NCBI GenBank assembly: GCA_025966315.1
Contig: JAOPUZ010000011.1
Span: 1 to 64,000, forward strand
Direction of reading: 5' to 3'
Length of the DNA: 64,000 nt
Source of the DNA: Frankiales bacterium
GTDB lineage: Bacteria; Actinomycetota; Actinomycetes; Mycobacteriales; Jatrophihabitantaceae
The notes under the pieces are model-generated. The model was not told where the DNA came from and made no database searches. It saw only the letters and a program-made list of their open reading frames with translations. Positions 3,291 through 64,000 of this stretch are shown here, in pieces (the first letter of the stretch is position 1; each line of letters begins with the position of its first letter). The position numbers and the translations under genes are program-made.

Positions 3291-4532
3291 GTGTCGAAAC
3301 CACGGCAATTCCAAAGATCTCCTCAAGTACGGTCAAATTCGGTCGACTTCTCTCGCATTTCGACTACTCGGCGTCAGGAGCGCGCTATCCGGATCGCATT
3401 CCTGAGTCACACTGCGTTGTCCAGCGTGTTCCGCGTGGGAAGTCATCACCTCGCTCGCGAATTGGCCGCGATGGGGCATCACGTCGTCCACATCAGCAAT
3501 CCCGTGTCCGTCGCGAGCCTGGTCGGGCGCGACCCGGAATTCCGGCGGCGGGCCCGGCTGGCGGTACCGCTGCGGCTACACCGGCATGACGACGTCCTGC
3601 ACGCCGTTCCGTGGAGCGTCTTCCCGCTGTCTCGCGATCCCATCGGACGGCCGCTCACGCTCGGCTCTACCGGTCTGCTGCGCCGCCGCCTCGCCGCCGC
3701 CGGACTGTTGCCGATCGACGTGGCGCTGGTGGACGAGCCCAAGCTGGCGTACCTGCTCCCGATGCTGGCCGCGGCGACGGTGATCTACCGGCCGACCGAC
3801 GTCAACGCCGCCCCGAGCACGCGAGGCGCGGAGGACCGCCTGCTCGCCGATTGCTCCGTTTGCTCGGATTGCCGTGGTGTGATCGCGACCTCGCAGCACG
3901 TCCTCGATGAGCTGACTCGCCGGCATCGGTTGAGCCGGACAGCCGTCATCGCCAACGGCGTGGATTTTGAGCGGTTCAACCGAGCGGGGGCCGCACCCTC
4001 GATTGAAACGGGTGCCGGCTCAACATCCGACAAGCGTCAGGGCGCCGTCTACGTGGGTGCATTGGACGCCCGTTTCGACTGGGCCGCGTTGACGGCGGTG
4101 GCCGCGGCCCGACCGGACGTGGGTATCGACCTGTTCGGCCCGGCCGGCACGCGACCGTCCAACGTGCCGCCCAACGTCCAGCTGCGTGGTCCGGTGCCGT
4201 ATTCCGAATTGCCGCTGGTACTGGCGCGTTACCGGGTGGGCTTGTTACCGCTTTCCGACGAGCCAACCAACGCCGGGCGCAGCCCTATGAAACTCTACGA
4301 ATACCTCGCGGCCGGCCTGTCCGTCTGGACGCGGGCCACGGCGTCGATGCCGGCCGAAATGCAGGACGTGCATCGGTACACCGGAGCGTCGGACGCGGTG
4401 AGCGCCTTCGCGGCCGCGTTGGCCGACCCGTTGACGGGGGACGGGATGCGGGCGGCCCGGGCCATGGATTGGTCCGCCCGAGCGGTGCAGTTGCTCGAAG
4501 CGATAGCGGTTATGACCCGGACGGATCGGTAG
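3291..4532 (+). CDS. GumK-like glycosyltransferase
   Basis: 413-residue cytoplasmic or membrane-peripheral glycosyltransferase. The N-terminal Rossmann region begins at about residue 33 (RIAFLSHTALSSVFRVGSHHLAREL), a signature shared with GumK-type glucuronosyltransferases. The C-terminal GT-B half contains ANGVDFERFN and the NAGRSPMKLYEYLAAGLSVW donor-binding segment typical of GT4-like enzymes. The annotated GTG start at 3291 gives about 30 unconserved residues, so a later start is possible. It is divergent from the secreted hydrolase (87-base intergenic region holding both promoters) and overlaps the convergent GT39-like gene by 23 bases. Likely adds a sugar to a lipid-linked exopolysaccharide intermediate; the sugar is unknown. 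Confidence 0.75.
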   Translation: MSKPRQFQRSPQVRSNSVDFSRISTTRRQERAIRIAFLSHTALSSVFRVGSHHLARELAAMGHHVVHISNPVSVASLVGRDPEFRRRARLAVPLRLHRHDDVLHAVPWSVFPLSRDPIGRPLTLGSTGLLRRRLAAAGLLPIDVALVDEPKLAYLLPMLAAATVIYRPTDVNAAPSTRGAEDRLLADCSVCSDCRGVIATSQHVLDELTRRHRLSRTAVIANGVDFERFNRAGAAPSIETGAGSTSDKRQGAVYVGALDARFDWAALTAVAAARPDVGIDLFGPAGTRPSNVPPNVQLRGPVPYSELPLVLARYRVGLLPLSDEPTNAGRSPMKLYEYLAAGLSVWTRATASMPAEMQDVHRYTGASDAVSAFAAALADPLTGDGMRAARAMDWSARAVQLLEAIAVMTRTDR

Positions 4533-49106: not shown

Positions 49107-50591
49107 TCAGGCGTCGACCAGGATGCCGCGATCGGTCTCGAAACGGCTGTCGTCCACCGACTGGCACCGCATCTCGTATTCGGTCATCGTGTGCGGCCAC
49201 TGCGTGACGATGCGGCCTTCCGGGGTCCGGTAGTAGTTGCTGCAGCTGGCCTGCCAGACCTCGACCTGGCCGAGGTCGTCCTGCAATTTCTCGTTGTAGT
49301 CGTCCATCACCTCGCGACGGACATCGATCCAGGCGAGATTCTCGCGGTCCATCAAGCGCAATTGAGCCACGATGAAATCGGCCTGGGTTTCTAGCATGAA
49401 CAGGATCGAACCGTTGTTCGTGTTCGGCCCGTACATCATGAAGAGGTTCGGAAAGCCGGCCGTCATGATCCCGAGATAGGCCTCGGGCCCGTGTTGCCAA
49501 GCGTCGTCCAAAGCCAATCCGTCCCGGCCCGTGACCTTGATCGCGGACAGGTACTTGCGGACCTGATAGCCGGTCGCACAGATGATCGTGTCCACCTCAC
49601 GCGCAGTGCCGTCGTTGGAGACGATTCCGTTGACGGCGACACGTTCGATCCCCGAGGTCACCAATTCGACGTGATCCTGATTGAACGTCGGGTAATACTC
49701 GTTCGAGATGAGCGGACGAAGACAGCCGAAGGGCACGTGCGGGGTGAACTTCTCGCGCAGTTCCTGATCTTGAAGACTCTCGATGTTCTTCAGCCCGGCT
49801 TCGGTGGCGGCGGCGAGCAACTTCGGGTCACTGAAGGTGATCCGGCCATCGAGTTCGGCGTAGATCTCGTCGCGTTTCTGTGCCGTCAGGATCGGGTCTT
49901 GGGCCAAAGCCAACTGCTCGGCCTCGTCCACCGCGTCGTCGACCTTGGGTGCGATCCACGGAGCCGAGCGCTGGTAGACGTAGAGCTGCTCGACGTCGGG
50001 TGCGATTTTCGGTATGAACTGCACGGCGCTGGCGGCACTGCCGATGACGGCCACCTTCCGGCCCTTGAGTTCGTGATCTTCACGCCAACGCGAGGCGTGA
50101 AACACCGTTCCCTCGAAATCCTGCAGGCCTTCGATTTCGGGCCAATTCAACTCGTTGAACATGCCCTGCGCCGCAATGAGCACATCGACGGTGAGTTCTT
50201 GCTCGTCATCGGTGGTCAAGCGCCAGCACGCATCCGCTTCGTTCCAGTGCGCGGCGGTGACCTTGCTGCCTAGGCGCAGATGTGGCCGCAACCCGTACTT
50301 CGTCGCCACCATATCCATGTATTCGAGGATTTCCGGCTGCGCGGCGTAGGCCCGGCTCCAGCGCGGATTCGGTTCGAAGGTGAACGAATAGAGCCGCGAC
50401 TTCACGTCACAGGTCAACCCGGGATACCGCGTGTTGTACCAGGTACCGCCCACGCCGGCCGATTTCTCGATGATCACGAAGTCCTCGTAACCCGCGGCGC
50501 GCAGTTTTATGCCGGCGGCCATACCGCCCGGGCCTGCGCCGATGATGGCGATGCGACGTGACCGGCCCGAGGTTTGCTGGTTTGCACCCAC
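49107..50591 (-). CDS. Baeyer-Villiger-type flavin monooxygenase
   Basis: 494 residues from the GTG at 50591 (AGGAG 9 bases upstream). FAD site IAIIGAGPGGMAAG near the N terminus, GVGGTWYNTRYPGLTCDV, the BVMO fingerprint FEGTVFHASRW (FxGxxxHxxxW), the NADPH site VAVIGSAASAVQF, and ATGYQVRKY. Class B monooxygenase oxidising ketones to esters or lactones, or S/N-oxygenating; substrate unknown. Divergent from a methyltransferase gene with a 161-base shared promoter region. Confidence 0.92.
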   Translation of the reverse strand: MGANQQTSGRSRRIAIIGAGPGGMAAGIKLRAAGYEDFVIIEKSAGVGGTWYNTRYPGLTCDVKSRLYSFTFEPNPRWSRAYAAQPEILEYMDMVATKYGLRPHLRLGSKVTAAHWNEADACWRLTTDDEQELTVDVLIAAQGMFNELNWPEIEGLQDFEGTVFHASRWREDHELKGRKVAVIGSAASAVQFIPKIAPDVEQLYVYQRSAPWIAPKVDDAVDEAEQLALAQDPILTAQKRDEIYAELDGRITFSDPKLLAAATEAGLKNIESLQDQELREKFTPHVPFGCLRPLISNEYYPTFNQDHVELVTSGIERVAVNGIVSNDGTAREVDTIICATGYQVRKYLSAIKVTGRDGLALDDAWQHGPEAYLGIMTAGFPNLFMMYGPNTNNGSILFMLETQADFIVAQLRLMDRENLAWIDVRREVMDDYNEKLQDDLGQVEVWQASCSNYYRTPEGRIVTQWPHTMTEYEMRCQSVDDSRFETDRGILVDA

Positions 50592-50752
50592 GCTGATGTG
50601 CTCCTGTCCTAATGGTCCTAGGTATCGGATGTGCGTGCGATCACCGGCGCTGCTCGACTTCGGGCGGGCGGCGATCATTACGCTCCTTAGTTTGCGCAAC
50701 GAAGGACGTCGCGGCAAGGGCTGCCCGACGCGGGCGTTGCTAGCCTGCTGAG

Positions 50753-51475
50753 ATGGACCAGCCACCGGACACCAACGCGGCCATCTGGAAGTCTGCTGAA
50801 GTCATCCAGAATTGGGCCGCCGAGGCTGACGACCGGGAACGCAAACGCGGCGAGCCCCGGCGGTTGATGGCGGAATTGCTTCCGTTCGACCAGTCGGAGA
50901 AATTCACCTTTCTGGACCTCGGCGCCGGAACCGGCGCGGCCAGCCGTGGAATCCTCGCCCAATACCCGAACAGCACCGCGATTCTGGCCGACTTCTCACC
51001 GCAGATGATGGGAGCGGGCGAGCGCGAGATGCAGCCTTTCGCGGGCCGTTTCCGCTACGTCGAATTCGATATGGCGGTCGGCGGCTGGCCCGACGACATT
51101 CCGACGTCGGTGGGCGCGATCATCACCTCATTGAGCGTTCATCATCTGACCGACACCCGGAAGCAGAGCCTGTTTGGCGAGATCTACGGTCGGCTCGCCG
51201 CCGGCGGCTGGTATCTCAACTACGACCCGGTGACGGCGCCCGATCGGATTGTTGAGGCAACCTGGCAGCGGGTCAACGAGCGCGAGGACCCGACCGCGGC
51301 GCACCAGCGTCAGCACCGGTCGCACAGCGAGCAGGAACGCTGGGACAACCATGTGCGGTACATGATCCCGTTGGCACAACAGCTCGACTATCTTCGGGCC
51401 GCTGGTTTCGAAGGTATCGACGTGTACTGGAAGCGCCTGGAGAACGTGATCTACGGCGGCCGCCGCCCGAACTGA
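50753..51475 (+). CDS. Class I SAM-dependent methyltransferase
   Basis: 240 residues. SAM motif I is FTFLDLGAGTGAASRGI, followed by ILADFSPQMM (acidic end of strand 2), FDMAVGGWP, and ITSLSVHHLTD (motif IV region). The C-terminal ERWDNHVRYMIPLAQQLDYLRAAGFEGIDVYWKRL is typical of small-molecule methyltransferases. Substrate unknown. Upstream divergent from the monooxygenase. Confidence 0.88.
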   Translation: MDQPPDTNAAIWKSAEVIQNWAAEADDRERKRGEPRRLMAELLPFDQSEKFTFLDLGAGTGAASRGILAQYPNSTAILADFSPQMMGAGEREMQPFAGRFRYVEFDMAVGGWPDDIPTSVGAIITSLSVHHLTDTRKQSLFGEIYGRLAAGGWYLNYDPVTAPDRIVEATWQRVNEREDPTAAHQRQHRSHSEQERWDNHVRYMIPLAQQLDYLRAAGFEGIDVYWKRLENVIYGGRRPN

Positions 51476-52134: not shown

Positions 52135-53472
52135 TCAGCGAGCTGGCTCCAGGTCCCAGGCCGCACCGCACGAATCGCAGACGAACAGCACGGCGCCGCG
52201 CTCGTAGCCACGGTTCTGGGACGGTGCGATGACGCTGGCCACCTGAGCGTCAGGCGAACCGCATTCCGGACACGGTCCCGGATCTGGCGTCCCCGACCGC
52301 GGCGTCGTGGCCGCCTCCTGGTAACCGACACCGATCAACAGCACGCCGCCGTCGGTCTGGGCGATGGCGGCCGTCAGTACCTCGTCCACGTCCGTTTCGC
52401 CGTTCCCACGCAGCGGGACGATGACGTGCGGCGTCTGCCCGAAACCGGCCGACATCGCCTCGGTGGCGGCCTCGACCACCGACTCACCGGCTTGTCGGAC
52501 GACATGGCCGTGTATCGGATGCTCACTGACCGAGATCGGCTGCGCGTCCGGCGGGAGCAGCGCGAGCACGGCGGCCGGGATATGAAAGGTAGCGCCGCCG
52601 GGGGAGTCCGGTCCGGGCGCACCGATCACGCTGTGATGACTGTGGTCGTGGTCTTCGTCGTGACCGTGACCGTGGTCGTCGTCACCGTGGTCGTGGCTGT
52701 GGCCGTGGTGGCTGCCGTGGTCGTGGCGGTTGGCCTGGTCGGGATCAGGCGCCTCGCTCTGGGACGCCGCGCCCTCGAGGTGACGCAAGACCTGGTCCAG
52801 TGAGATCACGTCCCCGTACTTCTGATCGATATCGAACAGGTTCATGGCCCGGGTGGCTTCGTGCCGGTCGTACACCGCATCTTCGACCACGATCATGTTC
52901 AACCGGTTGCTACAGCCGTCGACGACGGTGGCGCGCACGCAGCCGCTGACCGCTTCGCCGCAGACGATCAGAGTGTCGATCTTTTCGCTGACCAGGTAGG
53001 CCAACAGCGGCGTCCCGAAGAAAGCGCTCGGACCCGTCTTGGTCAACACGACCTCGCCGGGCAGCGGCGCGGCCTGCTCCACGATGTCGTACCGCCGACT
53101 GTGCCGATCCGCGGCTGCCGCGTCGCGTGACCCGGCGCCGCGACTGCCGCGCCGGGCGCTCCAGCCGGGGATGCCGGTGTCCTCGACGGCCATCCCGGTC
53201 AGGTGGATGACCGGAAGACCGGCCGCGCGGCCGGCGGCCAGCAAGGCCTCGACCTTCTCCAGCGCTGCCCAGCCCGCCAGCCCCGCGCTGTTCGGCCATT
53301 CCTCGATCGCTTCGAGCAGCGGCTGCGGCCGGTCACCGATCGCGCCGCGATAATTGTCGACGGACAGGATCGCGGCCTTGTTGCCGAACCCGTAGGGACG
53401 CTTGGGCTTCATCCGGGCGAGGTGGGCACGGTCGTTTTCAGTCAGGAACTGGTCCCAGACGCGGGTCGTCAT
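52135..53472 (-). CDS. Isochorismatase-family amidase fused to His-rich linker and zinc-ribbon domain
   Basis: 445 residues, about twice the usual family length. Residues 30-235 form a cysteine hydrolase of the isochorismatase superfamily with D39 (LSVDN), K145 (LTKTG) and nucleophile C178 (AVSGCVRAT), like N-carbamoylsarcosine or ureidoacrylate/maleamate amidohydrolases. Residues 250-280 are a His/Asp-rich run (HGSHHGHSHDHGDDDHGHGH), and 290-445 is a second domain ending in CPEC (401-404) and CDSC (432-435), a zinc ribbon. The linker and ribbon imply zinc or nickel binding. It lies 120 bases downstream of the MFS gene on the same strand and may belong to the neighbouring catabolic cluster. 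Confidence 0.85.
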   Translation of the reverse strand: MTTRVWDQFLTENDRAHLARMKPKRPYGFGNKAAILSVDNYRGAIGDRPQPLLEAIEEWPNSAGLAGWAALEKVEALLAAGRAAGLPVIHLTGMAVEDTGIPGWSARRGSRGAGSRDAAAADRHSRRYDIVEQAAPLPGEVVLTKTGPSAFFGTPLLAYLVSEKIDTLIVCGEAVSGCVRATVVDGCSNRLNMIVVEDAVYDRHEATRAMNLFDIDQKYGDVISLDQVLRHLEGAASQSEAPDPDQANRHDHGSHHGHSHDHGDDDHGHGHDEDHDHSHHSVIGAPGPDSPGGATFHIPAAVLALLPPDAQPISVSEHPIHGHVVRQAGESVVEAATEAMSAGFGQTPHVIVPLRGNGETDVDEVLTAAIAQTDGGVLLIGVGYQEAATTPRSGTPDPGPCPECGSPDAQVASVIAPSQNRGYERGAVLFVCDSCGAAWDLEPAR

Positions 53473-53553: not shown

Positions 53554-53596
53554 GGTTAGTGCGGTTAGTTCGGTTAGCGATGGTTAGGGCGGTTAG
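53554..53596. repeat. GGTTAG tandem repeat, 9-10-bp period
   Basis: Five GGTTAG motifs at 53554, 53563, 53572, 53582 and 53591 (with an outlier at 53531), separated by 3-4 variable bases. The array fills the leader of the isochorismatase-type gene and touches the MFS stop codon. On the transcript (minus strand) it reads CTAACC. Function unknown. Confidence 0.75.
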
Positions 53597-54852
53597 GGAT
53601 TGGCGGGTTCGGGCTCGGACTGCGGTTTGGTGGTCTGGCCGATCGCGGCGCCGGCCCGAGCGGTCAGCGATATGGCGGCCAGCGGAATCAGGGTAAAAAC
53701 GCCGAGCGCGATCCGGACGTTCACGAGCGATGCCAGCGCACCGGCGGTAAGTGAGAAGGCGGGCCGCAGCCCCAGGTGCACCATCGAGAACAGAGACATC
53801 ACCCGGCCGCGCATGTGTTCCGGGCTGAGTACCTGCAGGCCCGCACTCAAGACTGGAATATTGAATGCAAAACCCAGGCCGATCGGGACGGCCAGCACCG
53901 CGGCCTCCGGAAGAGCCTGGCTGACCGCGACGCCGGCCACGCCGACGGCCTGCAGCGCGAAGGCACTGGCCAGCAGCCGATTGGCCCGAATGCGCCGGGA
54001 CAGCCAGCTGAAGATAACGAGCCCGACGGTGGCCCCCAGGCTGTAGGCGGTGACCAGTAGGCCGGCCGAATCGGCGCTCAGGTGCAGGCTCTGCTTGGTG
54101 ATTTCCGGTGCCAGTGTGCGCAGCGCCTCGACCGAGGCATTGGCCAGTGCCACTGCGACCAACAGGGACAGCAGCACCGGCGTCCCGAGGGCGAAGCGCA
54201 ACCCTTCGCGGCCGGAGCCGCGCATGCTCCGCCGCGACCCGTGATCAGGCATGGACACCTTGCGCAGCAGATACATCGCCACGATCGGGGCGACGAAGGA
54301 GGCGCTGTTCACGGCGAAGGCCGCGGTCGGCGTGGACACCGCCAGGATCAGCGCCGACAGGGCCGAGCCGACGACCTGACCGAGATTGAACTGCAGGGTA
54401 TTGACCGCGGTCGCGCGCGCGATCTCGTCGCGGCGCACCAGGGCCGGCAGCAAGGAGGCAAGCGCGGGCTTGGCCAACGCATAGGAACAGCCCAGCAGGG
54501 TGGCCAGCGCGATCAACACCGGGGCGGTGATGTGACCGGTCGCGGTGAGCACGGTGATCACCACAGCCACCGCGAGCGAGAACACCTGGGTCCACACGAC
54601 GACCCGGCGCCGGTCGTAGCGGTCGGACAACATGCCGCCGAACATCGACAGGGCGAAGATCGGGGCGAAGGTCGCGAAGTTGAGGACGCCGACCATCAGC
54701 GGGGAATCGGTGAGCTTGAGCACCAGGACCGAGGCGGTCACATTTTGCAGCCAGGTGCCGACGTTGGACAGGAAGCCGCCGGTCCAATAGACCCGGAAAC
54801 TGCGCTGCGTAAAGAGACCCCAGCGGGATTCGGGTGCGGTCGGCTGGCTCAT
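53593..54852 (-). CDS. MFS transporter (EntS-like MFS_3 group)
   Basis: 419-residue 12-helix permease from the ATG at 54852 (AAGGAGAG 8 bases upstream). The opening RSFRVYWTGGFLSNVGTWLQNVTASVLVLKLTDSPLMVGVL and GGMLSDRYDRRRVVVWTQ are the MFS_3/EntS pattern of siderophore- and drug-type exporters. Convergently organised with nothing; divergent from the cupin gene of the catabolic cluster, so it may move that pathway's substrate or product. Confidence 0.88.
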   Translation of the reverse strand: MSQPTAPESRWGLFTQRSFRVYWTGGFLSNVGTWLQNVTASVLVLKLTDSPLMVGVLNFATFAPIFALSMFGGMLSDRYDRRRVVVWTQVFSLAVAVVITVLTATGHITAPVLIALATLLGCSYALAKPALASLLPALVRRDEIARATAVNTLQFNLGQVVGSALSALILAVSTPTAAFAVNSASFVAPIVAMYLLRKVSMPDHGSRRSMRGSGREGLRFALGTPVLLSLLVAVALANASVEALRTLAPEITKQSLHLSADSAGLLVTAYSLGATVGLVIFSWLSRRIRANRLLASAFALQAVGVAGVAVSQALPEAAVLAVPIGLGFAFNIPVLSAGLQVLSPEHMRGRVMSLFSMVHLGLRPAFSLTAGALASLVNVRIALGVFTLIPLAAISLTARAGAAIGQTTKPQSEPEPANP

Positions 54853-54905
54853 TGTCGTTCTCTCCTTCCCTTTATTTCCAGGAGGTTTCGCGAGTCCGCC
54901 CGGGC

Positions 54906-54933
54906 TTGACTTCAAGATTGGATACCATATCCT
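54906..54933 (+). promoter_or_regulatory. Promoter of the cupin operon with GGATA-N3-TATCC operator
   Basis: -35 TTGACT (54906-54911), 16-base spacer, -10 TATCCT (54928-54933). An inverted repeat GGATA-CCA-TATCC (54920-54932) overlaps the -10 box. It resembles the palindrome at 56467-56483 (shared G-R-ATAC-N2-TAT-Y-C pattern), so a common repressor, probably GntR-like, is inferred. Confidence 0.6.
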
Positions 54934-54989: not shown

Positions 54990-55508
54990 ATGACCACCGC
55001 TCGTACCGAACAACGCCTCGTCGTCAAAGAACAGGCGTTGAGCGAGACCGAGAACAGCGAGATGGGAGTCCGGGAGGAGTGGAACAAGAAAAACCCGCCC
55101 ACCGAAGCCATCATCGTCAAGAACCTCAAGACGACCGAGCTCATCTCGCGCCCGTACCGCAACACCAAGGCTCGTTTCTACCGCCTGGGCCACGACATCC
55201 GGCTGCAGCCGCACGTCAGTGAGCTGCCCCCGGGCAAGGCGTCGGTCAACCACCGGCACACCACCGAAGCCGTCATCTACATCGTCTCGGGCGTGGGTCA
55301 CACCATCGTCAGCTGGGACGGCGAGAACCAGGAGCGCATCGACTGGGAGGAAGGCGACATGTTCAGCTTCCCGGTCTGGATGTGGCACCAGCACTTCAAC
55401 GACAGCGAGACCGAGGTCTGCCGTTACCTCGCGGTCCAGGACACCTTCGCCATCAAGGCTCTCGGTTTGCACCAGATCGAGCGCTTTCCCGGCGATACCG
55501 AAGGCTGA
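54990..55508 (+). CDS. Cupin-domain protein
   Basis: 172 residues from the ATG at 54990 (GAAGGGG upstream). Cupin motif 1 HRHTTEAVIYIVSGVGHTIV (H88, H90, E93) and motif 2 FPVWMWHQHFN (H133, H135) give a complete metal site, so it may be a dioxygenase or isomerase in the pathway. An N-terminal helical extension (NPPTEAIIVKNLKTTELISRPYRN) is typical of the ethanolamine/gentisate-type cupins near ring-degrading enzymes. First gene of the plus-strand cluster, 11 bases before the AAA+ gene. Confidence 0.85.
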   Translation: MTTARTEQRLVVKEQALSETENSEMGVREEWNKKNPPTEAIIVKNLKTTELISRPYRNTKARFYRLGHDIRLQPHVSELPPGKASVNHRHTTEAVIYIVSGVGHTIVSWDGENQERIDWEEGDMFSFPVWMWHQHFNDSETEVCRYLAVQDTFAIKALGLHQIERFPGDTEG

Positions 55509-55519
55509 GACGAAGCACA

Positions 55520-56416
55520 ATGACGGTGGTTTCTGCGGCTAGCCTCGCCGATCTGCAACGCCCAGGTGTTTCGGTCACCGGCATCCTGCCCGACGATTCC
55601 TGGCAGGACCAGTGGCACGGCATCGTGGTCGACGAGGGCATGAAATCACGACTGCTCAGTTTTGGACTGTTTTGCTTGACCCAGCGGGCCGGCATCTCGC
55701 CGGTCGGATTGCCGGTGCATGGGCTGGCCCTGCTTTCGGGGCCGCCCGGCACCGGTAAGACCACGCTCGCGCACGGGGCGGCCAATATGGTCGCCGCGAT
55801 CTTGCGGGAGCGGGGACTGGCCGACGAGGTGCTGTTCGCGGTCGTTGATCCGCACGCGTTCCCGAGCGAATTCCTGGGTGAAAGCCAGCGGGCGGTAGCT
55901 CGGCTGTTCCGGGACACGCTGCCCGAACTCGCCGGCTTCGGCCGGCCGTTGATCGTCCTGCTGGACGAGGTGGAAGCGCTGGCCGTAACCAGGTCGCGGG
56001 CCTCGCTGGACACCAATCCGGTCGACGTCCACCGGGCCACCGACGCGGTGCTCACCGGCGTCGACCGGCTGGCCGCACAGCACCCCAACGTGGTGTTGCT
56101 GGCGACCACCAACGATGTCGCGACGGTGGACGGTGCCTTTCTGTCCCGGGTCGATCTGCACGAAACCTTCGTGCTGCCAGGGAAGACGGCCGCGGCTGAG
56201 ATTCTCTCCTCGTCGTTGGCCGAACTGGGAGTGGCCTTGTCGGCGCACAGCCCGGAGCTGATCGAGCTGGCCGCGCGGTGCGTGACGGCGGAGTTGGACG
56301 CGCGCCGGATTCGCAAGCTGGTGCTGCGCGCATTAGTCAGCAATGGACCGGAACTTGCGTTGCGTCCCGAGACGATGACGGTGCGACACGTCATCAGCGC
56401 TCTCGACAGCATCTGA
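55520..56416 (+). CDS. TRIP13/Pch2-like AAA+ ATPase
   Basis: 298 residues from the ATG at 55520. Walker A GPPGTGKTT (74-82), pore-loop region SEFLGESQRAVARLF, Walker B LIVLLDE (144-150), sensor 1 ATTND (195-199) and a C-terminal lid with FLSRVDLHETFVLPG. This combination is the Pch2/TRIP13 subgroup, which in eukaryotes and CBASS systems remodels HORMA proteins; no HORMA or cyclase gene is here. It lacks the long N-terminal domain of eukaryotic Pch2. Set between a cupin and a hydrolase, it may assemble or activate an enzyme of the cluster, a role comparable to MoxR/CoxD chaperones. That function is inference. Confidence 0.8.
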   Translation: MTVVSAASLADLQRPGVSVTGILPDDSWQDQWHGIVVDEGMKSRLLSFGLFCLTQRAGISPVGLPVHGLALLSGPPGTGKTTLAHGAANMVAAILRERGLADEVLFAVVDPHAFPSEFLGESQRAVARLFRDTLPELAGFGRPLIVLLDEVEALAVTRSRASLDTNPVDVHRATDAVLTGVDRLAAQHPNVVLLATTNDVATVDGAFLSRVDLHETFVLPGKTAAAEILSSSLAELGVALSAHSPELIELAARCVTAELDARRIRKLVLRALVSNGPELALRPETMTVRHVISALDSI

Positions 56417-56466
56417 ACCGCGTCACATCGTCTGGTCACAATCGGCCGGATGCTTTACCTTCGTAA

Positions 56467-56483
56467 TTGAATACAGTATTCAA
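56467..56483. promoter_or_regulatory. Perfect palindrome TTGAATAC-A-GTATTCAA
   Basis: 17-bp perfect inverted repeat, 18 bases before the start of the alpha/beta-hydrolase gene, overlapping the likely core promoter. GntR/FadR-type operators have this AT-centred form. A related palindrome is at 54920-54932 upstream of the cupin gene. Regulator gene not found in the window. Confidence 0.7.
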
Positions 56484-56500
56484 CGACAGGGAGTTGGGAT

Positions 56501-57454
56501 TTGCGTACCGAGGAAGTGTCCTTCTACAGCGAAGGCTCGCGCCTAGCGGCCTATTGGCGTACTCCGGATGAGTACACCGGACGGCTGCGGGCGATTATCC
56601 AGGGCCCGGGCTGGCTCGGCCTGCGTGACGCCAAGCTGTACGTGCGATACCACGAAGCGCTTACCGCGGCCGGTTTCGGCGTGCTGGTGCTGGACTATCG
56701 CGGTTTCGGCGATTCCGAGGGCGACCGGTCCCGGCTCTCGTTCAGCGGCCAGCTGCTCGATCTTATGAACGGCGTCAGCTACCTGACCACGCGTGCGGAC
56801 GTCGACCCCGACGCCATCGGCGTGTTCGGTAGCGGCGGTACCGGTGGCGGCAACGCCGTGCTGCTGGCGGCAAATGACGATCGGATCAAGGCCGCGGTCA
56901 GCCAGGTTCCGGTGGCCGACGGCACCGACTGGCTGCACCGGATGCGCTCCGAGCACGAGTGGCTGACGTTCGAAGCGATGCTGGCCGAGGACCGTCGCGA
57001 TCGGGCCGCGGGCGGCAAGGGTCGACTGGTACACCCTCGTGAAGAGATCATGGTGCCGACGCCAGAACGGCGGGCTACCAAGGTGAAAGCCGATGTCGAC
57101 GACCGGATCCCGACCGCGGTCTCGCTGGCCGCCGCCGATGAGATCCTGAAGTACCGCCCGCTAGAAGCGGCGACCGGCCTGCAAACCCCGTTGATGATCG
57201 TTGCGGTGGAGGGTGACGCCACCACGCCGACCGATCACGCCGAAGCGTTGTACGAGGCAGCCGGCGGTCCACGCTCGCTGATCATGCAGCGGCACACGAC
57301 GCACTACGCCGCGTACGACCAGTACTGGGAATCAGTAACCCCGCGAATCGTCGAATGGTTCGACCGTTATGTCGTCAACGGCAACGTCGTCGTCCGGCAG
57401 GTCACCGAGCGTGTCGAGAGCATCGAATATCTGGGAGGAACTCATGCAGGTTGA
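56501..57454 (+). CDS. Alpha/beta hydrolase of the dienelactone/ring-opening type, odd nucleophile elbow
   Basis: 317 residues from a TTG start. Alpha/beta-hydrolase fold with GPGWLGLRDAKLYVRYHEALTAAGFGVLVLDYRGFGDSEG and the second half IGVFGSGGTGGGNAVLLAANDDRIKAAVSQVP, LMIVAVEGDATTPTDHAEALYEA (acid) and RHTTHYAAYD (histidine). In relatives the elbow reads GxSxGGG; here it is GSGGTGGGN, so the canonical G-x-S-x-G serine is not clearly present. Its 3' end overlaps the cyclic-amide hydrolase gene by 11 bases. Likely acts on an intermediate of the same pathway. Confidence 0.8.
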   Translation: MRTEEVSFYSEGSRLAAYWRTPDEYTGRLRAIIQGPGWLGLRDAKLYVRYHEALTAAGFGVLVLDYRGFGDSEGDRSRLSFSGQLLDLMNGVSYLTTRADVDPDAIGVFGSGGTGGGNAVLLAANDDRIKAAVSQVPVADGTDWLHRMRSEHEWLTFEAMLAEDRRDRAAGGKGRLVHPREEIMVPTPERRATKVKADVDDRIPTAVSLAAADEILKYRPLEAATGLQTPLMIVAVEGDATTPTDHAEALYEAAGGPRSLIMQRHTTHYAAYDQYWESVTPRIVEWFDRYVVNGNVVVRQVTERVESIEYLGGTHAG

Positions 57455-58850
57455 TCGTAAAGTCGTTGGCGGCATGGTCGTCACGCCCACCGGAACAGTG
57501 CAGGCCGACGTCCTGATCGCTGACGGTCGGATAGCCGGACTGGTCAGCGCCGAGGTGAGCAGCGGAATCGACGCCGAGACCATCGACGCGACGGGCAAAC
57601 TGGTGCTGCCCGGGATGATCGACGTGCACGTGCACACCCGCGAACCGGGGTACACGCACAAGGAAGACATCAACACGACCACGCAGCAGGCTGCTGCCGG
57701 TGGCGTGACCACCATATTCGGTATGCCCAATCTTGCTCCGCCGACCACGACGCTGGAGACGTTGGAGCAGGTCTTCGAGCTGTATCGCGCGAACTCGATC
57801 GTCGACTGGAACCACAACCCGGCCGCCACCGATCCGGACGAAGTCAAGAAGATGATCGAGACCGACATCCGGGCGTTCAAGATCTACATGGTGGTCGACA
57901 CCGGGCGCACGTACCCGCACCCGGCCGGCACCGGCATGCACGACCACGGTCACCTGCTGCAGATGATGGACACCATTGCCGGCAGCGGCAAGCGCTTCAT
58001 CATCCACCCGCACGACCAGGCCCTGATGGACTACATCGAAGGCGAATATCTCAAGCGCGGCGAGAACACCCCGCAGGGATACGCCTCGGCCTATGCCGCC
58101 CGCAACGGTGTCATCTGGGACACCGCCATCGACGTGGTGTTGCGGCTGGCTGAGGCCTCGGGCTGCGCGGTGCACATCGCTCACATGCAGACCAAGCGCT
58201 CGATCGAATCCGTGCGGCGGGCCAAGGACCGCGGCGTTGACGTCACCTGTGAGGTCAACCATTGGGCGCCGTTCCTGTCCACCTGGCAGGACGTGGAGAC
58301 CCTCGGCCCCTACGCGCTGTCGTACTGGGTGCCGGACGAGGGCCGCGAGGCCGTCTGGGAAGGCATGCGGGACGGCACCATCGACATGATTTCCTCCGAC
58401 CACGCCCCGCACACCCGCGAGGAGAAGGAAATCGGCTGGACCGAGATGTGGAGTTCGCATACCGGAACGCCGGGCATCCAGTACTACTACCCGATGCTGC
58501 TGGACGCGGTGAACCAGGGCAAGCTCACCCTCGAGCGCGCGGTCGATCTGGCCGCGTTCCAGCCGGCTAAGGCCTTTGGCCTGAACGCGGTCAAGGGTCA
58601 GCTCGCCGTCGGCTTCGACGCCGATCTGGTCATCGCCAACATGGATTCGCCGTGGACCATCACCAACGCCGGTGTGCTGTCCAAGATCGGCTGGACCTGT
58701 TACGACGGCCGGTCCATCTCGGTGAACTTCGAGACCACGCTCGTGCGTGGCGAACCCGTCTTCGCCGACGGCAAGGTCGTCGGCCGGCCCGGCTACGGCC
58801 AGATGGCTACCGCAAAACGAACCACTGCTGATTCGATGAGTGAGGTCTGA
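57444..58850 (+). CDS. Cyclic-amide hydrolase (dihydroorotase/allantoinase/hydantoinase superfamily)
   Basis: 468 residues from the ATG at 57444 (GGGAGGAA upstream). Amidohydrolase with binuclear metal site: H62 and H64 (DVHVHTREPG), carbamylated lysine K146 (FKIYM), H188/H190 (IIHPH), H244 (HIAHMQTKRS) and D319 (SSDHAPHT). The HxHxREPG-THKED motif with the substrate-carboxylate-binding arginine (R66) is closest to dihydroorotase and allantoinase, less to 5-substituted hydantoinases. It would hydrolyse a cyclic imide or ureide, consistent with an N-heterocycle pathway. Starts 11 bases inside the hydrolase gene and ends 2 bases before the LLM gene. Confidence 0.9.
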   Translation: MQVDRKVVGGMVVTPTGTVQADVLIADGRIAGLVSAEVSSGIDAETIDATGKLVLPGMIDVHVHTREPGYTHKEDINTTTQQAAAGGVTTIFGMPNLAPPTTTLETLEQVFELYRANSIVDWNHNPAATDPDEVKKMIETDIRAFKIYMVVDTGRTYPHPAGTGMHDHGHLLQMMDTIAGSGKRFIIHPHDQALMDYIEGEYLKRGENTPQGYASAYAARNGVIWDTAIDVVLRLAEASGCAVHIAHMQTKRSIESVRRAKDRGVDVTCEVNHWAPFLSTWQDVETLGPYALSYWVPDEGREAVWEGMRDGTIDMISSDHAPHTREEKEIGWTEMWSSHTGTPGIQYYYPMLLDAVNQGKLTLERAVDLAAFQPAKAFGLNAVKGQLAVGFDADLVIANMDSPWTITNAGVLSKIGWTCYDGRSISVNFETTLVRGEPVFADGKVVGRPGYGQMATAKRTTADSMSEV

Positions 58851-58852
58851 GG

Positions 58853-59830
58853 ATGAAGTACGGATTACTGCTGCCCCACTTCGGCGACGAAGCCGACAAG
58901 GACAAGCTGCTGCAAGGTTCCAAGCGCGCGGAGGAGCTGGGCTTCGACTCGGTCTGGGTGCGCGATCACCTGGTCTTCGAGCCGCACGGTGAGATGGAGA
59001 AGCCGAACCGGACGTTTTACGATGCGCTGACCACGCTCACCGCGATCGGGGCTGTCACCTCGAAGATCGAACTCGGTACTGGTTCGCTCATTCCCTTCCG
59101 GCACCCGCTGGTCACTGCCTTGATGGCCGGCACCATCACCCAGCTCGTCGGCCCACGCCTGATCTTGGGCTTCGGTGCCGGCACCTTCGACCACGAGTTC
59201 GACGCGGTCGGTATGAGTGGCTTGGACCGGGTCGAGCTGGTTCGCTCCAACGCCGAGATCCTCAAGCGGGTCATGACCGAGAACGACGTCTCGTACAAGG
59301 ACGAGTTCTTCGAGTTCCACGACGTGACCATCGAGCCCAAGCCGCTGGGTGGCAAGGTGCCGTTCTGGTACTGCGGCGCCACCCCTCGCTCGGCCCGGCT
59401 GGCGGTGGAGTTCTGCGACGGCTGGATGCCCGGCCGAATTTCGATGGACACCCTGGCCAAGCGGATCACCGACATCGAGGCGGGATCGCAGGCCGCCGGC
59501 CGGACCCGTCCGACCATCGCCGTCATCCCGCCGACGTCGATCGAGAGCACCCGCGAGGAAGCGCTCAAGCACGTCAATATCCCCGGGTTGCTGGCGTGGG
59601 CGAACAAGGCCAAGTTCGCGGTCCGGCCACCGTCGGGATCATTCGAGACGGTGGACGACCTGTCGGGCCAGCTGATCGTCGGCTCGCCCGAAGAGGCCAT
59701 CGCCGAATGCCAGAAGTTCGAAGCCCTGGGCGTCGAGCACCTCGTCTTCGACTTCCGGTTCAAGTTCGACAAATGGTACGAGCAGATCGAACTGCTGGGC
59801 AGCGAAGTCCTGCCGAAGCTAAGGGGCTGA
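58853..59830 (+). CDS. LLM-class F420-dependent oxidoreductase
   Basis: 325 residues. Luciferase-like TIM barrel: LLLPHFGDEADKDKLLQGSKRAEELGFDSVWVRDHL, IELGTGSLIPFRHPLVTALMAGTITQLVGPRLILGFGAGTF, GGKVPFWYCGATPRSARLAVEFCDGWMPG, LIVGSPEEAIAECQKFEALGVEHLVFDF. The standard 5,10-methylene-H4MPT-reductase/LLM pattern suggests F420 or FMNH2 use. It follows the cyclic-amide hydrolase at 2 bases and precedes the SRPBCC gene by 3 bases, so it belongs to the same operon. Confidence 0.92.
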   Translation: MKYGLLLPHFGDEADKDKLLQGSKRAEELGFDSVWVRDHLVFEPHGEMEKPNRTFYDALTTLTAIGAVTSKIELGTGSLIPFRHPLVTALMAGTITQLVGPRLILGFGAGTFDHEFDAVGMSGLDRVELVRSNAEILKRVMTENDVSYKDEFFEFHDVTIEPKPLGGKVPFWYCGATPRSARLAVEFCDGWMPGRISMDTLAKRITDIEAGSQAAGRTRPTIAVIPPTSIESTREEALKHVNIPGLLAWANKAKFAVRPPSGSFETVDDLSGQLIVGSPEEAIAECQKFEALGVEHLVFDFRFKFDKWYEQIELLGSEVLPKLRG

Positions 59831-59833
59831 GTC

Positions 59834-60295
59834 ATGCCGTCGACCTCATTCACCCGCGAACTGACGGTACAAGCGGACCGCGTCAAATGTTGGGCGGTGC
59901 TGACCGATGTCCCGCAGCTGGTGGAATGGGTCAGCGTCGTCAACGAAGCCAAGGAGATCAGCCCGCTCGAGTCGTACTCGGCGGTGCTGATGGACCGGCT
60001 TGGCCCGTTCAAGCTGAAGGCCGATCTGGCCATCGCGGTCAGTGAGGTCGTCGAGGGCGAGCAGATCCGGGTCAAAGCAAACGGTGAGGATCGCCAGGTA
60101 TCGTCGCGGATCGGCATCGACGCGATTCTGGTGCTGACCGACGGTGCCGACGGGGGAACGCAGATCAAGGTGGACGGTAGTTACGAGGTCATCGGCAAGG
60201 TGGCGACCCTGGGCGCCGGCATGATCCGGACCAAGGCCACCAAGATCCTGGACGAGTTCTTCGCCCATACCGGCAACGCGCTGGGCGCGGTCTGA
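59834..60295 (+). CDS. CoxG-like SRPBCC protein
   Basis: 153 residues with the SRPBCC/CoxG pattern (FTRELTVQADRVKCWAVLTDVPQLVEWVSVVNEAKE, LKADLAIAVSEVVEGEQIRVKANGEDRQVSSRIGIDAILVLTD, GMIRTKATKILDEFF). CoxG-type proteins accompany molybdenum hydroxylases and may bind quinone or assist electron transfer. It ends 1 base before the FAD subunit gene. Confidence 0.88.
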   Translation: MPSTSFTRELTVQADRVKCWAVLTDVPQLVEWVSVVNEAKEISPLESYSAVLMDRLGPFKLKADLAIAVSEVVEGEQIRVKANGEDRQVSSRIGIDAILVLTDGADGGTQIKVDGSYEVIGKVATLGAGMIRTKATKILDEFFAHTGNALGAV

Positions 60296-60296
60296 C

Positions 60297-61139
60297 ATGT
60301 TGCCGCCCTTCGGCCTGGCCCGCCCGCGATCCGTCTCGGCCGCGCTGGCCGAGCTGGACGAGGACTCGGTGCCGTACTGGGGCGGCACCGAACTGCTGCT
60401 GGCGATGCGGATGGGCCTGATCCGCCCGCGCCAACTGGTCGACCTGAAGGGCATCGCCGAGCTGACCGAGGTCCGAATCGAGGACGGCGAGTTGGTGCTC
60501 GGCGCCGGGCTGAGTCATGACGAGGTCGCCCGCGATCCCCTGGTGGCCGAACACGCGCCGTTGCTGGCCTACGCCGAGGCGCTGGTCGGCAACGCGCGGG
60601 TTCGGGCCCAGGGCACGATCGGTGGCAATCTGTGTTTTGCCGAGCCTCGATCCGATGTGGCCACCGTGCTCAGCGCCTTGTCGGCCGAGGTCCGGCTGGT
60701 CGCCGCGGACGGGACGGACGGGGCGGACGGGACCGACGGGGCCGACGGGACTAGAGAACGACGGCTGGACATGGCCGCCTTCCTGCTCGGCCCGTACTGG
60801 ACTGACCGGCAACCGGACGAATTGCTGGTCGACGTCCGGATCCCGTTGCCGGTCACGGCCGGGGTGTACCTGAAGTATCAGACCGTCGAACGGCCCACGG
60901 TCGGTGTCGCGGCCGTCGCGCGAGGTGCGGCGGGGTGCCGGCTGGTGGTCGGCGCGGTTGGTGAATTGCCCGCCGGTTTCGATTTCGAGGACGTCGCGAG
61001 CGTGGACGCCGAAGCCATTGCCGGTGAGCTCGAACCGACGCCCGACCTGACCGGCAGCATCTTGTACAAGCGCCACGTCACGGCTGTCTTCATTCGCCGG
61101 GCGCTGGCCGAATTGGCGGAGAAAGTGAGCGCCCCATGA
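60297..61139 (+). CDS. FAD-binding (medium) subunit of a xanthine-dehydrogenase-family enzyme
   Basis: 280 residues. FAD motifs GGTELLLAM (29-37) and TIGGNLCFAE (107-116) define the CoxM/XdhB-type subunit that relays electrons from the 2Fe-2S clusters. A DGTDGADGT linker, encoded by a 9-bp repeat near 60711-60753, interrupts the domain at residue ~145. It is followed by a MIRU-like ATGA-linked element. Confidence 0.9.
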   Translation: MLPPFGLARPRSVSAALAELDEDSVPYWGGTELLLAMRMGLIRPRQLVDLKGIAELTEVRIEDGELVLGAGLSHDEVARDPLVAEHAPLLAYAEALVGNARVRAQGTIGGNLCFAEPRSDVATVLSALSAEVRLVAADGTDGADGTDGADGTRERRLDMAAFLLGPYWTDRQPDELLVDVRIPLPVTAGVYLKYQTVERPTVGVAAVARGAAGCRLVVGAVGELPAGFDFEDVASVDAEAIAGELEPTPDLTGSILYKRHVTAVFIRRALAELAEKVSAP

Positions 61140-61225
61140 GTGAGCATCGCAGCGAGCGCCAGCGAGTGAGGAGCGGAGCGAATGCCAGCGATGAGCGCTC
61201 GCGCGAAGAGCCGGCAGCCTCATGA
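61136..61225 (+). repeat. MIRU-like element with a 29-codon linker ORF
   Basis: The stop of the FAD-subunit gene overlaps the ATG of a 29-codon frame (ATGA at 61136-61139), whose own TGA overlaps the next gene's ATG (ATGA at 61222-61225). The 12-bp sequence ATGAGTGAGCAT is present at both ends, 86 bases apart, and the inside is a repetitive GAGCG/CAGCGAG run. This is the architecture of mycobacterial MIRU elements, which insert at ATGA junctions and keep translational coupling. The encoded peptide (MSEHRSERQRVRSGANASDE…) is unlikely to be a functional protein itself. Confidence 0.65.
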
Positions 61226-61740
61226 GTGAGCATGAGTTGAGTGAGCAGCCGCTGGACACCGAGATCCAGACGCATATCAACGGCCGGCCGATTGCCCGAC
61301 GGGTACGTAACCGCGCGACCCTGGCCCAGTTCTTGCGTGATGACCTAGGCCTGACCGGTACGAAGCTCAGCTGCGAATTGCAGGTCTGCGGCGTGTGCTC
61401 GGTCCTGGTGGACGATCGACCGGTCAGTGCGTGCACCTACCTTGCGGTCGACGTCGATGGCCGCCAAGTGCGAACCGTGGAGGGCTTGGCCTGTAACGGC
61501 AAACTCAATGCGCTGCAGAGCGCCTTCGTCGAGAACTTCGCCCTGCAATGCGGATTCTGCACCGCGGGATTTCTGATGATGTCGACGTCGCTGCTGGAGC
61601 GCAACCCCGACCCGTCCGAACACGAAGTCGTCGAATACCTGGACGGCAACATCTGCCGATGCACCGGTTACGAACCGATCGTGCAGGCCGTACTTGACGC
61701 GGCGGGCCGGATCCGGGCGGCGGGGACCAGCGATGACTGA
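61222..61740 (+). CDS. 2Fe-2S (small) subunit of a xanthine-dehydrogenase-family enzyme
   Basis: 172 residues. Eight cysteines bind two [2Fe-2S] clusters: C51, C56, C59 and C71 (plant-ferredoxin type, CELQVCGVC) and C110, C113, C145 and C147 (CGFC and CRC in GNICRCTGY). It passes electrons from the molybdenum centre to the FAD subunit. Its last codons overlap the large-subunit ATG by 8 bases. Confidence 0.95.
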   Translation: MSEHELSEQPLDTEIQTHINGRPIARRVRNRATLAQFLRDDLGLTGTKLSCELQVCGVCSVLVDDRPVSACTYLAVDVDGRQVRTVEGLACNGKLNALQSAFVENFALQCGFCTAGFLMMSTSLLERNPDPSEHEVVEYLDGNICRCTGYEPIVQAVLDAAGRIRAAGTSDD

Positions 61741-64000
61741 CTCGAAGATGAAAGCGCATCCGGTGTTCCCCGAACATTCCGGAAAGTCCTTTGCCGGCAA
61801 GGCCGTGCTCCGCCGCGACCTCAAAGAGAAGGTGACCGGCGCCGCCGTCTACACGGTCGACGTGGTGCCGCCGGGCTGTCTGCACGCGGTCGTGGTCCGC
61901 AGCGACCGCGCCCATGCGCGGATCATCGACGTGGACCGGAGCGAGGCGCTGGCCGTGCCCGGTGTGGTCGCGGTGATCACCTCCGATGATCTGACCGGGC
62001 TGTTCCCGAGGTTTGGTCACATCGTCCCCGACCACTGCATTTTGGCTATCGACAAGGTGCGTTACTACGGCGAGCCGGTCGTGCTGGTCATCGGTGACGA
62101 CCTCTATTCGGCTTCTGACGGCGCTGATCTGGTCCGGATCGAGTACGACGAGTTGCCGGCCGTGATGACCATCGACGAGGCGCTGGCGCCGGACGCGACG
62201 CTGGTACACGAGGAGCAATACGCCTCGACCGGTGACGAATCCTTCTCGGCGATGGCCGCCGCGCCGGACGACAGCGACACCGCGTTGCCGGCCACGGACA
62301 ACATCACGCACTCCCACGAGCTGGCCTGGGGCGATGTGCAGGCCGCCTTCGCCGCCTCAGACGTGATCGTCGAGACGCTGATTCACTTTCCGATGCTGTA
62401 CGGCTACGCGATGGAGCCCTACAACTCGGTCGCGCACTTCACCGATGACGGTCTGCATGTAACCAGTTCGGCCCAGCATCCGTACATGGTCCGCACCGAC
62501 CTGGCGCGGGTGTTCGACCTGCCGTTGGCGAAGGTGCGAGTCGATGTTCCTTATCTGGGCGGGGGATACGGCACCAAGTCGTACACCAAGCTCGAACCGT
62601 TGGCCGCGATCGGCGCCTGGATCACCAAACGCCCGGTGAAGCTGGTGGTCGATGTCGAAGGTGCCATCTACACCACCCGGGCCGATGCGGCCCAGACCCG
62701 GATGCGGACCGGATTCACCAGCGACGGCGTGATCCTGGCCCGCGAGTACGAAGTGATTCTGGAATCAGGCGCCTACGCCGACAACAGCCCGCTGGTACTG
62801 GCCAAAGCGGTCAACCGTGCGTTCGGGCCGTACCGGGTGCCGAATATCGCCGGGCGCGGTAAGTCGGTCTACACGAATACCGCGCCGGCCTCCTCCTACC
62901 GCGGTTTCGGTGCCCCGCAGGGTGCCTTGGCCGGAGAGCTCAATCTCGACCAGGCCGCCGAACAACTAGGGCTGGATCCGTATGAGCTGCGCCGGCGCAA
63001 CCTCGTCCACCCGGGCGAAGAGATCCTGCCCGGCAAGCGAGGCATCGATGCCGACCTGCACGCAGACCTGGGCATGCTCGAAGAATCGTTGAAACGTGAT
63101 GCCTCCGACCAGCCGATGCACGGGATCGGGGTCGGTCTGGCCGCTTCGGATGCCGGAGCGTTCCCGGTGTCGACCGCCATCGTCCGGATCCAGACCGACG
63201 GCTCGGCCGTGGTGATGAGTGGTGCCACCGAGATGGGTCAAGGCAGCAAGTCGGTGCTGGTGCAGCTGGTGGCCGAGGAGCTCGGCATTCCGATGGAGGT
63301 CGTGCAGGTTGTGCAGTCCGACACCGGAGCGGGCTCGTACGAGCGCACCACCGGCGCCAGCCGGACCACGACGCTGGTCGGGCTCGCCGTGCAGCGGGCC
63401 TGCGGTGACGCGCGGCGCAAGATTGCCGAGATGGCGTCGGAGATCTTCGAGTGCACACCGGACCTGATCGACCATCTGCCGGGTGGTATCAGCGGTCCAG
63501 ACGGACTCAGTGCCACGTTCGGCGAAGTGATCCAGCGCTGGTTCGGTGCCGAGGCCGGCGAAGTCACCGGTGTGGGCACGGTACGTCGAGAGGGTGTCAC
63601 GCAAAAGATGCCGCCCTTTTGGGAAGTCGGCGTGGTCGGCGTGGAGGTCGCGGTCGATCCCGAGACCGGCTTCGTCACCGTCGAGCAGCTGGTCACCGTC
63701 GCTGATGTCGGTTTCGCCATGAATCCCAAGGCTGTCGAGGGCCAGGACCTGGGCGCGGCGACCCAGGGTCTCGGGTACTCGCTCTACGAGGAATTGGTTT
63801 ACGACGGGCCACAGATCGTGAATCCGAATGTGGTCGAATACCGCGTGCCGCGGATGGGCGATCTGCCCAAGAAGATCGACACGATGATTGCCCAGCGCGG
63901 TGATGGCGTAGGCCCGTACGGGGCCAAAGGTGCTGGTGAAGGTGCGCTCAACCCGATGGGACCGGCCGTGGCCAGCGCGATCGCGCGAGCGACCGGAAAG
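61733..64000 (+). CDS. Molybdopterin (large) subunit of a xanthine-dehydrogenase-family enzyme, cut by the window edge
   Basis: 756 codons from the ATG at 61733 with no stop before the window end, so the C terminus (about 20-40 residues by family length) is missing. Domains: aldehyde-oxidase/xanthine-dehydrogenase a/b hammerhead (FAGKAVLRRDLKEKVTGAAVYTVD), the molybdopterin-binding segments GGGYGTKSY, SYRGFGAPQGALAGE (Y389-G393), GATEMGQGSKSVL, and the catalytic glutamate E736 in AGEGALNPMGPAVA. The SYRGFG sequence excludes form I CO dehydrogenase, which has AYRCSFR, so this is a hydroxylase for an aldehyde, purine-like or other N-heterocyclic substrate. The GEGALNPMG environment suggests the latter group but specificity is not readable. 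Confidence 0.93.
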   Translation, partial: MTDSKMKAHPVFPEHSGKSFAGKAVLRRDLKEKVTGAAVYTVDVVPPGCLHAVVVRSDRAHARIIDVDRSEALAVPGVVAVITSDDLTGLFPRFGHIVPDHCILAIDKVRYYGEPVVLVIGDDLYSASDGADLVRIEYDELPAVMTIDEALAPDATLVHEEQYASTGDESFSAMAAAPDDSDTALPATDNITHSHELAWGDVQAAFAASDVIVETLIHFPMLYGYAMEPYNSVAHFTDDGLHVTSSAQHPYMVRTDLARVFDLPLAKVRVDVPYLGGGYGTKSYTKLEPLAAIGAWITKRPVKLVVDVEGAIYTTRADAAQTRMRTGFTSDGVILAREYEVILESGAYADNSPLVLAKAVNRAFGPYRVPNIAGRGKSVYTNTAPASSYRGFGAPQGALAGELNLDQAAEQLGLDPYELRRRNLVHPGEEILPGKRGIDADLHADLGMLEESLKRDASDQPMHGIGVGLAASDAGAFPVSTAIVRIQTDGSAVVMSGATEMGQGSKSVLVQLVAEELGIPMEVVQVVQSDTGAGSYERTTGASRTTTLVGLAVQRACGDARRKIAEMASEIFECTPDLIDHLPGGISGPDGLSATFGEVIQRWFGAEAGEVTGVGTVRREGVTQKMPPFWEVGVVGVEVAVDPETGFVTVEQLVTVADVGFAMNPKAVEGQDLGAATQGLGYSLYEELVYDGPQIVNPNVVEYRVPRMGDLPKKIDTMIAQRGDGVGPYGAKGAGEGALNPMGPAVASAIARATGK

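Follow-up and report, generated by a model that had tools for sequence, protein, structure and literature searches.

The 64,000 bases analysed here (the window; bases 1-64000 of contig C15, which is 88,679 bases long, in the 4.56-Mb genome of a Frankiales bacterium) encode an AAA+ ATPase of the Pch2/TRIP13 type just downstream of a small cupin. Excerpts of PMC4439613 and PMC7159879 describe Pch2/TRIP13 as an enzyme that remodels HORMA proteins, whether in checkpoints, in meiosis or in the cyclic-oligonucleotide-based anti-phage signalling system (CBASS). We propose that the window ATPase, a family member whose sequence places it closest to the Trip13 of CBASS, has a cupin metalloprotein, not a HORMA protein, as its client, and we put the probability of this reading at roughly 55%; a TRIP13-type ring working on the cupin is the most likely account of its role. 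The features concerned are:

54990-55508, + strand: single-domain cupin of 172 residues (Pfam Cupin_2, 49.7 bits) with an intact metal-ligand pattern; candidate client of the ATPase.
55520-56416, + strand: Pch2/TRIP13-family AAA+ ATPase of 298 residues (PADLOC TRIP13 model, 275 bits; PDB sequence and fold matches).
55859-55888, + strand: ATPase residues 114-123 (FPSEFLGESQ), assigned to pore loop 1 by alignment to PCH-2, for which an excerpt of PMC4439613 gives the pore loop numbering 217-226.

PDB sequence matches, fold matches and the PADLOC model agree on the family, so the first-pass annotation was right to call the ATPase TRIP13/Pch2-like, and by these comparisons it is a true member. In the PDB sequence search its best matches were worm PCH-2 and human TRIP13 (92.9 bits for the sequence alone, 156.9 bits as a profile), with p97, AFG2 and Rix7 ranking behind them. 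The predicted structure (predicted local distance difference test score, pLDDT, of 92) retrieved PCH-2, TRIP13 or E. coli Trip13 at every one of Foldseek ranks 1-15. Pfam matches at E-values up to 0.001 were limited to AAA (PF00004), AAA_16 and AAA_22, and the MoxR-type model gave none at that threshold. All 35 aligned sequences have K80 of the Walker A motif and D149-E150 of the Walker B motif. The N-terminal domain of eukaryotic Pch2 is missing, as the profile alignment begins at PCH-2 residue 124, and the bacterial Trip13 chains in PDB 6p8v are about as short as the 298-residue window protein. The PADLOC TRIP13 model (PDLC00915) gave 275-318 bits for five cupin-linked ATPases, 390-474 bits for three CBASS ones and 205 bits for an archaeal relative; because the five cupin-linked proteins reach such scores, annotation by the TRIP13 gene alone would count them as defence genes.

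Across related loci, the constant unit is the ATPase and a cupin. A scan taking one genome per species yielded 92 relatives, the best 80 of which, together with the window's own locus and locus L110, make up a sample of 82. A cupin lies directly upstream of the ATPase, on the same strand, in 80 of these 82 loci (the window included), as counted by home-made gene calling plus tblastn rescue, with exceptions checked by tblastn. In 77 loci it is a two-domain cupin, found by gene calling in 68 and by tblastn in 9 for which the caller had called a different frame or no gene at all; in three (the window's own, L030 and L031) it is a single-domain cupin of the window type. The two loci with no upstream cupin are L065, a CBASS operon (bacHORMA_2, 109 bits; SMODS, 86 bits), and L077, a catabolic-type locus on an 11-kb contig. 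Besides one unidentified bacterium, the cupin-linked loci come from three phyla, Actinomycetota, Chloroflexota and Pseudomonadota, and retention of the pair in 80 of 82 loci exceeds chance.

The other genes around the pair vary among loci and include thiamine pyrophosphate (TPP) enzymes, aldehyde dehydrogenases, molybdenum hydroxylases and luciferase-like (LLM) oxidoreductases. Each locus reached at most about 10 kb in either direction and many ended at contig ends, so that counts of neighbouring genes are lower bounds: the molybdenum hydroxylase large subunit was found at at least 6 of the 82 loci, an LLM oxidoreductase at at least 18, a cyclic amidohydrolase at at least 11 and the hydrolase at at least 9, with the window included in each count. 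Genes of an ABC importer frequently lie nearby, encoding the binding protein at 47, the ATPase at 49 and the permease at 46 of the 82 loci. This changing company, with its frequent importer, would suit a cupin that is an adaptor or small-molecule sensor presenting the ATPase with some other client, such as a catabolic enzyme or a component of a transporter; p31comet brings MAD2 to TRIP13 as an adaptor in this manner, according to an excerpt of PMC4439613. We consider an adaptor unlikely, since no other gene family matches the cupin in constancy (the second most frequent, the ABC ATPase, reaches only those 49 loci) and since both domains of the two-domain cupin have histidine motifs fit for metal, as expected of an enzyme. 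A general chaperone that assembles the cluster enzymes and has no special tie to the cupin is a quite improbable alternative: the ATPase is indeed embedded in large catabolic-type clusters, but the accompanying enzymes differ between loci and the pair is retained, with the cupin as the constant partner.

Both kinds of cupin carry predicted metal sites. In the window cupin these are the patterns HRH..E and WHQH, predicted from sequence. Relatives 89% identical to it occupy the same position in L030 and L031, and these three sequences share a conserved lead of about 60 residues that differs from that of the two-domain type. In the two-domain cupin, the metal-motif histidines are invariant in both domains of 19 of 19 aligned sequences, and ahead of the first barrel lies an N-terminal stretch, TxTTTxxxHYxxQKxRR, whose H, Y, Q, K and R are invariant. 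Mean identity is 83% over residues 11-22 of this protein, which precede the first barrel and have low predicted confidence, and 77-78% over the barrels. Its nearest relatives by sequence are the gentisate, salicylate and 5-aminosalicylate 1,2-dioxygenases, themselves two-domain cupins, and the gentisate and salicylate enzymes are nearest by fold as well. The resemblance is distant (15-21% identity, with TM-scores near 0.5 in fold alignments) and the protein scores far under the NCBIfam cut-offs, so that no reaction is assigned to this putative enzyme.

The association also holds at the level of whole genomes. Among 397 genomes of the order, searched at E-values up to 1e-30, the ATPase occurred in 11 and the two-domain cupin in 8, and all 8 were among the 11 (Fisher p ~1e-14, not corrected for relatedness). 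In the three genomes that have the ATPase and lack the two-domain cupin (G092, G145 and G208, all of one genus), a SMODS-family CD-NTase and bacHORMA_2 adjoin the ATPase. A bacHORMA_2 search covering the 11 ATPase-positive genomes gave matches in 3 of 3 CBASS-type genomes versus 0 of 8 cupin-type genomes, the window's own included. A bacHORMA_1 search was also silent, but it was silent everywhere and had no positive control, and so is uninformative. The two samples overlap in part: L030 comes from genome G016, and L053 and L108 apparently from G185 and G221.

Beside the window ATPase itself there is neither a CD-NTase nor a HORMA gene, the neighbours being the cupin upstream and metabolic enzymes and an importer downstream. 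The ATPase might nonetheless be a carried-along defence gene that still serves CBASS in trans, as PADLOC names it TRIP13 and SMODS-type CD-NTase matches occur on other contigs of the same genome, two on C42 (204-689 and 1201-1539) and one on C11 (6526-7002). We regard such service as extremely improbable, given that no bacHORMA_2 was found in this genome or in the other seven of the cupin type and that the cupin-linked ATPases form a separate group in the tree.

Of the 65 rows in that tree, 47 came from the 82 loci, one was worm PCH-2 and 17 were other proteins. The 17 comprise 14 assigned to CBASS by Pfam or annotation, two from unannotated plasmids and one archaeal. In the tree, the cupin-linked ATPases group together, next to CBASS Trip13: the group's 47 rows, which include L077, make up one side of a branch with support 94/90, and with the worm row excluded a single change between the cupin and non-cupin states was enough in 200 of 200 bootstrap trees. 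When PCH-2 is taken as the root, the cupin-group rows nest within the CBASS rows; on that rooting the ATPase would have passed from defence into metabolism. Plasmid relatives of the ATPase numbered 13; an annotated CBASS cyclase lies a few genes downstream in 10 of them and two are unannotated there. Twelve of the 13 are 40-48% identical to the window ATPase, and the archaeal match is 34% identical. The archaeal TRIP13-type ATPase (L141, a Haloarcula plasmid, 4417-5424; PADLOC TRIP13, 205 bits) lies amid hypothetical genes, with no CD-NTase among its annotated neighbours. In L065 (9914-13674), an acidobacterial CBASS operon, the Trip13 has stretches, DPHRLPSE and ETNPVDVH, that are close to those of the cupin-linked group, and it adjoins that group in the tree.

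The two groups of ATPases differ where a client would be gripped. Between 46 cupin-linked and 16 other rows, the archaeal row having been dropped, 16 positions separate the groups, and 4 of the 16 fall within the ten-residue pore loop 1 (114-123 in the window protein; p ~0.001 for this enrichment, calculated post hoc and with relatedness ignored). F114 is present in 45 of 46 cupin-linked rows, versus L in 16 of 16 others, and P115 in 46 of 46 cupin-linked rows.

If the cupin is the client, the ATPase, as a hexameric ring, would most likely grip an exposed end of the cupin through pore loop 1, perhaps by the conserved N-terminal tail, and would spend ATP on threading it far enough to unfold it partly or loosen it. 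A cupin that was dead, wrongly metallated, oxidised or locked by an inhibitor could in this way be reset and take up metal or substrate again. Rubisco activase, diol-dehydratase reactivase and EutA reactivate their own enzymes, and it is by analogy with Rubisco activase and EutA that we suggest reactivation or remetallation of the cupin as the outcome, and activation as the direction of the effect.

Several points weigh against this proposal. Adjacency and co-occurrence establish a functional link but not contact. Each of the three seeds used to find loci had an upstream cupin, which may have biased the sample towards the cupin-linked subgroup, and of 92 relatives only the 80 best were retained. 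On the window's own contig, about 15 kb separate the ATPase from the two-domain cupin downstream of it; the adjoining cupin is of the single-domain type, and its tail has no HYxxQKxRR motif. The tail of the two-domain cupin is predicted, with low confidence, to be partly helical. Support of 94/90 for the cupin group is just under the tool's star, the branches of L077, L033, L065 and L141 are long, and the root of the tree rests on one row, PCH-2, whose branch is very long. Finally, two of the eight cupin-type genomes (G016 and G096) are less than 90% complete, so the absence of HORMA is weaker there.

A second ATPase, EutA-like and unrelated to the TRIP13 type, has a cupin family of its own. 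A EutA-like protein is encoded at 31 of the 82 loci (the L086 copy scores 370 bits with Pfam EutA). A gene of the family we call cupin10 lies directly upstream of it in 18 of the 31; in seven the EutA-like gene is at the locus edge, and six have no cupin10 in that position. The EutA-like ATPase adjoins its cupin family at L036, L038, L039, L066, L086 and others, and at L149-L154. Within the order, EutA-like genes (E-values up to 1e-40) occurred in 14 of 397 genomes, among them 6 of the 8 with the two-domain cupin (Fisher p ~1.6e-8, relatedness ignored); the window's own genome has none. Eight EutA-positive genomes are without the two-domain cupin, and six of these, all but G003 and G303, were examined. 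EutA has a cupin10-like gene next to it in five of the six (before it in two, after it in three; 36-84% identity), and in the remaining one it is about 1.5 kb off, with a weak two-domain-cupin-like match adjoining EutA instead. An ethanolamine pathway was considered as the reason for the EutA-like gene and rejected: in the 11 genomes searched, EutB was found in two of the six that were EutA-positive, both times on another contig. A wider idea, which we hold tentatively and think somewhat doubtful, is that, in bacterial catabolic clusters, TRIP13-type and EutA-type ATPases are dedicated reactivases, each of its own cupin family, and that the TRIP13 type has been exchanged between defence and metabolism by a swap of client from HORMA to cupin, mainly via the pore loop.

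The remaining genes of the run, and two on the opposite strand, are:

56501-57454, + strand: alpha/beta hydrolase (Pfam Peptidase_S15, Peptidase_S9).
57444-58850, + strand: cyclic amidohydrolase of the dihydroorotase/allantoinase/hydantoinase type (Pfam Amidohydro_1; the 25 NCBIfam matches listed are all below cut-offs).
58853-59830, + strand: luciferase-like (LLM) oxidoreductase (Pfam Bac_luciferase, 162 bits).
59834-60295, + strand: CoxG-like protein (Pfam COXG, 45 bits).
60297-61139, + strand: flavin adenine dinucleotide (FAD) subunit of a molybdenum hydroxylase (Pfam FAD_binding_5).
61222-61740, + strand: 2Fe-2S subunit of the molybdenum hydroxylase (Pfam Fer2_2, Fer2).
~61733 to ~64081, + strand: large subunit of the molybdenum hydroxylase, running beyond the window end at 64000 (Pfam MoCoBD_1, MoCoBD_2, Ald_Xan_dh_C).
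53593-54915, - strand: divergent MFS transporter, with a counterpart at 48 of 82 related loci (Pfam MFS for the representative, L061).
52135-53472, - strand: hydrolase of the isochorismatase family containing a His-rich stretch, with a counterpart at 15 of 82 related loci (Pfam Isochorismatase for the representative, L066).

All nine genes named by the first-pass annotation are present on the plus strand, with the domains it gave them. Its spacing of 0-14 bases throughout did not hold, as 84 bases separate the AAA gene (most likely start, the ATG at 55520) from the hydrolase and 82 bases separate the FAD from the 2Fe-2S subunit, measured to the first listed start codon. The gene run it placed at 54990-64000 is real, with limits drawn too narrowly. 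Past the window edge, on the same contig, the run continues with an ABC importer (binding protein at 64248, ATPase at 65608 and fused permease at 66684); a regulator that looks GntR-like by eye is also encoded downstream, and farther along are genes for another binding protein (69455), two additional cupins (70577 and 71264) and one more amidohydrolase (72319). Because the MFS and isochorismatase-like genes recur at related loci, the cluster probably starts upstream of 54990. Farther upstream, a 552-residue frame on the minus strand (49107-50765) has, by eye, the look of a flavin-containing monooxygenase of the Baeyer-Villiger type.

All three molybdenum hydroxylase subunits (FAD, 2Fe-2S and molybdenum-binding) are encoded together in the window, as judged by Pfam. 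The set of molybdenum hydroxylase, LLM and cyclic amidohydrolase genes is of a catabolic type, which supports the catabolic part of the earlier proposal of an N-heterocycle or cyclic-amide degradation cluster. Degradation of such a compound would agree with these enzyme types, but no substrate is assigned, as none of the NCBIfam matches listed for the nine window proteins, molybdenum subunits included, reached a cut-off. A cyclic ureide, imide or N-heterocycle is a plausible substrate of the pathway, to go by enzyme types only.

The ATPase had also been cast as a maturation factor for this molybdoenzyme. The two share an operon in the window, the three molybdenum subunits were also matched together at L030, L038 and L041, and CoxD-type AAA+ proteins serve molybdenum hydroxylases. 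When the co-occurrence of cupin, ATPase and molybdoenzyme is followed across loci, however, the outcome is split: the cupin accompanies the ATPase nearly always and the molybdoenzyme does so rarely, its large subunit having been found at the 6 of 82 loci noted above as a lower bound. Moreover, G006 (L151; same genus as the window) and G023 (L152) encode large subunits 68-69% identical to that of the window (over 764 and 757 aligned residues) in clusters that hold LLM, EutA-like and cupin genes, and no close TRIP13-type ATPase was found in either genome at E-values up to 1e-10; G006 is 91% and G023 76% complete, making the absence weaker for G023. The window's type of molybdoenzyme therefore appears with either ATPase-cupin pair. 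On this co-occurrence, and with no MoxR-type Pfam match at the threshold given above, we rejected the maturation role, which we consider very improbable.

In the literature searched (titles and the starts of abstracts, with few subscription papers or preprints), we found no description of a TRIP13-type ATPase paired with a cupin, and a term search of PMC7159879 gave no occurrence of cupin. For EutA and a cupin, the literature found concerned ethanolamine microcompartments, compatible solutes and one genome annotation, and described no pairing. The pairing suggests that bacteria reuse a checkpoint and anti-phage ATPase machine for servicing catabolic enzymes. If the cupin is indeed the client, this group would show that Pch2/TRIP13 proteins are not confined to HORMA clients, would reveal that cupin metalloproteins undergo energy-dependent servicing, and would offer a natural experiment on client change by an AAA+ ring.

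Among known systems, the Trip13 of type III CBASS (Cap6; E. coli MS115-1, PDB 6p8v, and the plasmid operons with a CBASS cyclase) resembles the window ATPase in its AAA+ family, its length of about 300 residues, its lack of an N-terminal domain and its active-site motifs. The window ATPase differs in adjoining a cupin, not HORMA and a CD-NTase, in having its own branch and in its pore loop 1. Eukaryotic Pch2/TRIP13 proteins provide its best sequence and fold matches in the PDB, but the window ATPase is without their N-terminal substrate-recognition domain, and the bacHORMA_2 search of cupin-type genomes found no HORMA client for it. Its closest functional parallels may be Rubisco activase/CbbX (which is AAA+), EutA and diol-dehydratase reactivase: the ATP-driven rescue of one enzyme encoded nearby, which we propose by analogy, would be common to all of them, whereas the window ATPase belongs to another family and its proposed client is a cupin.

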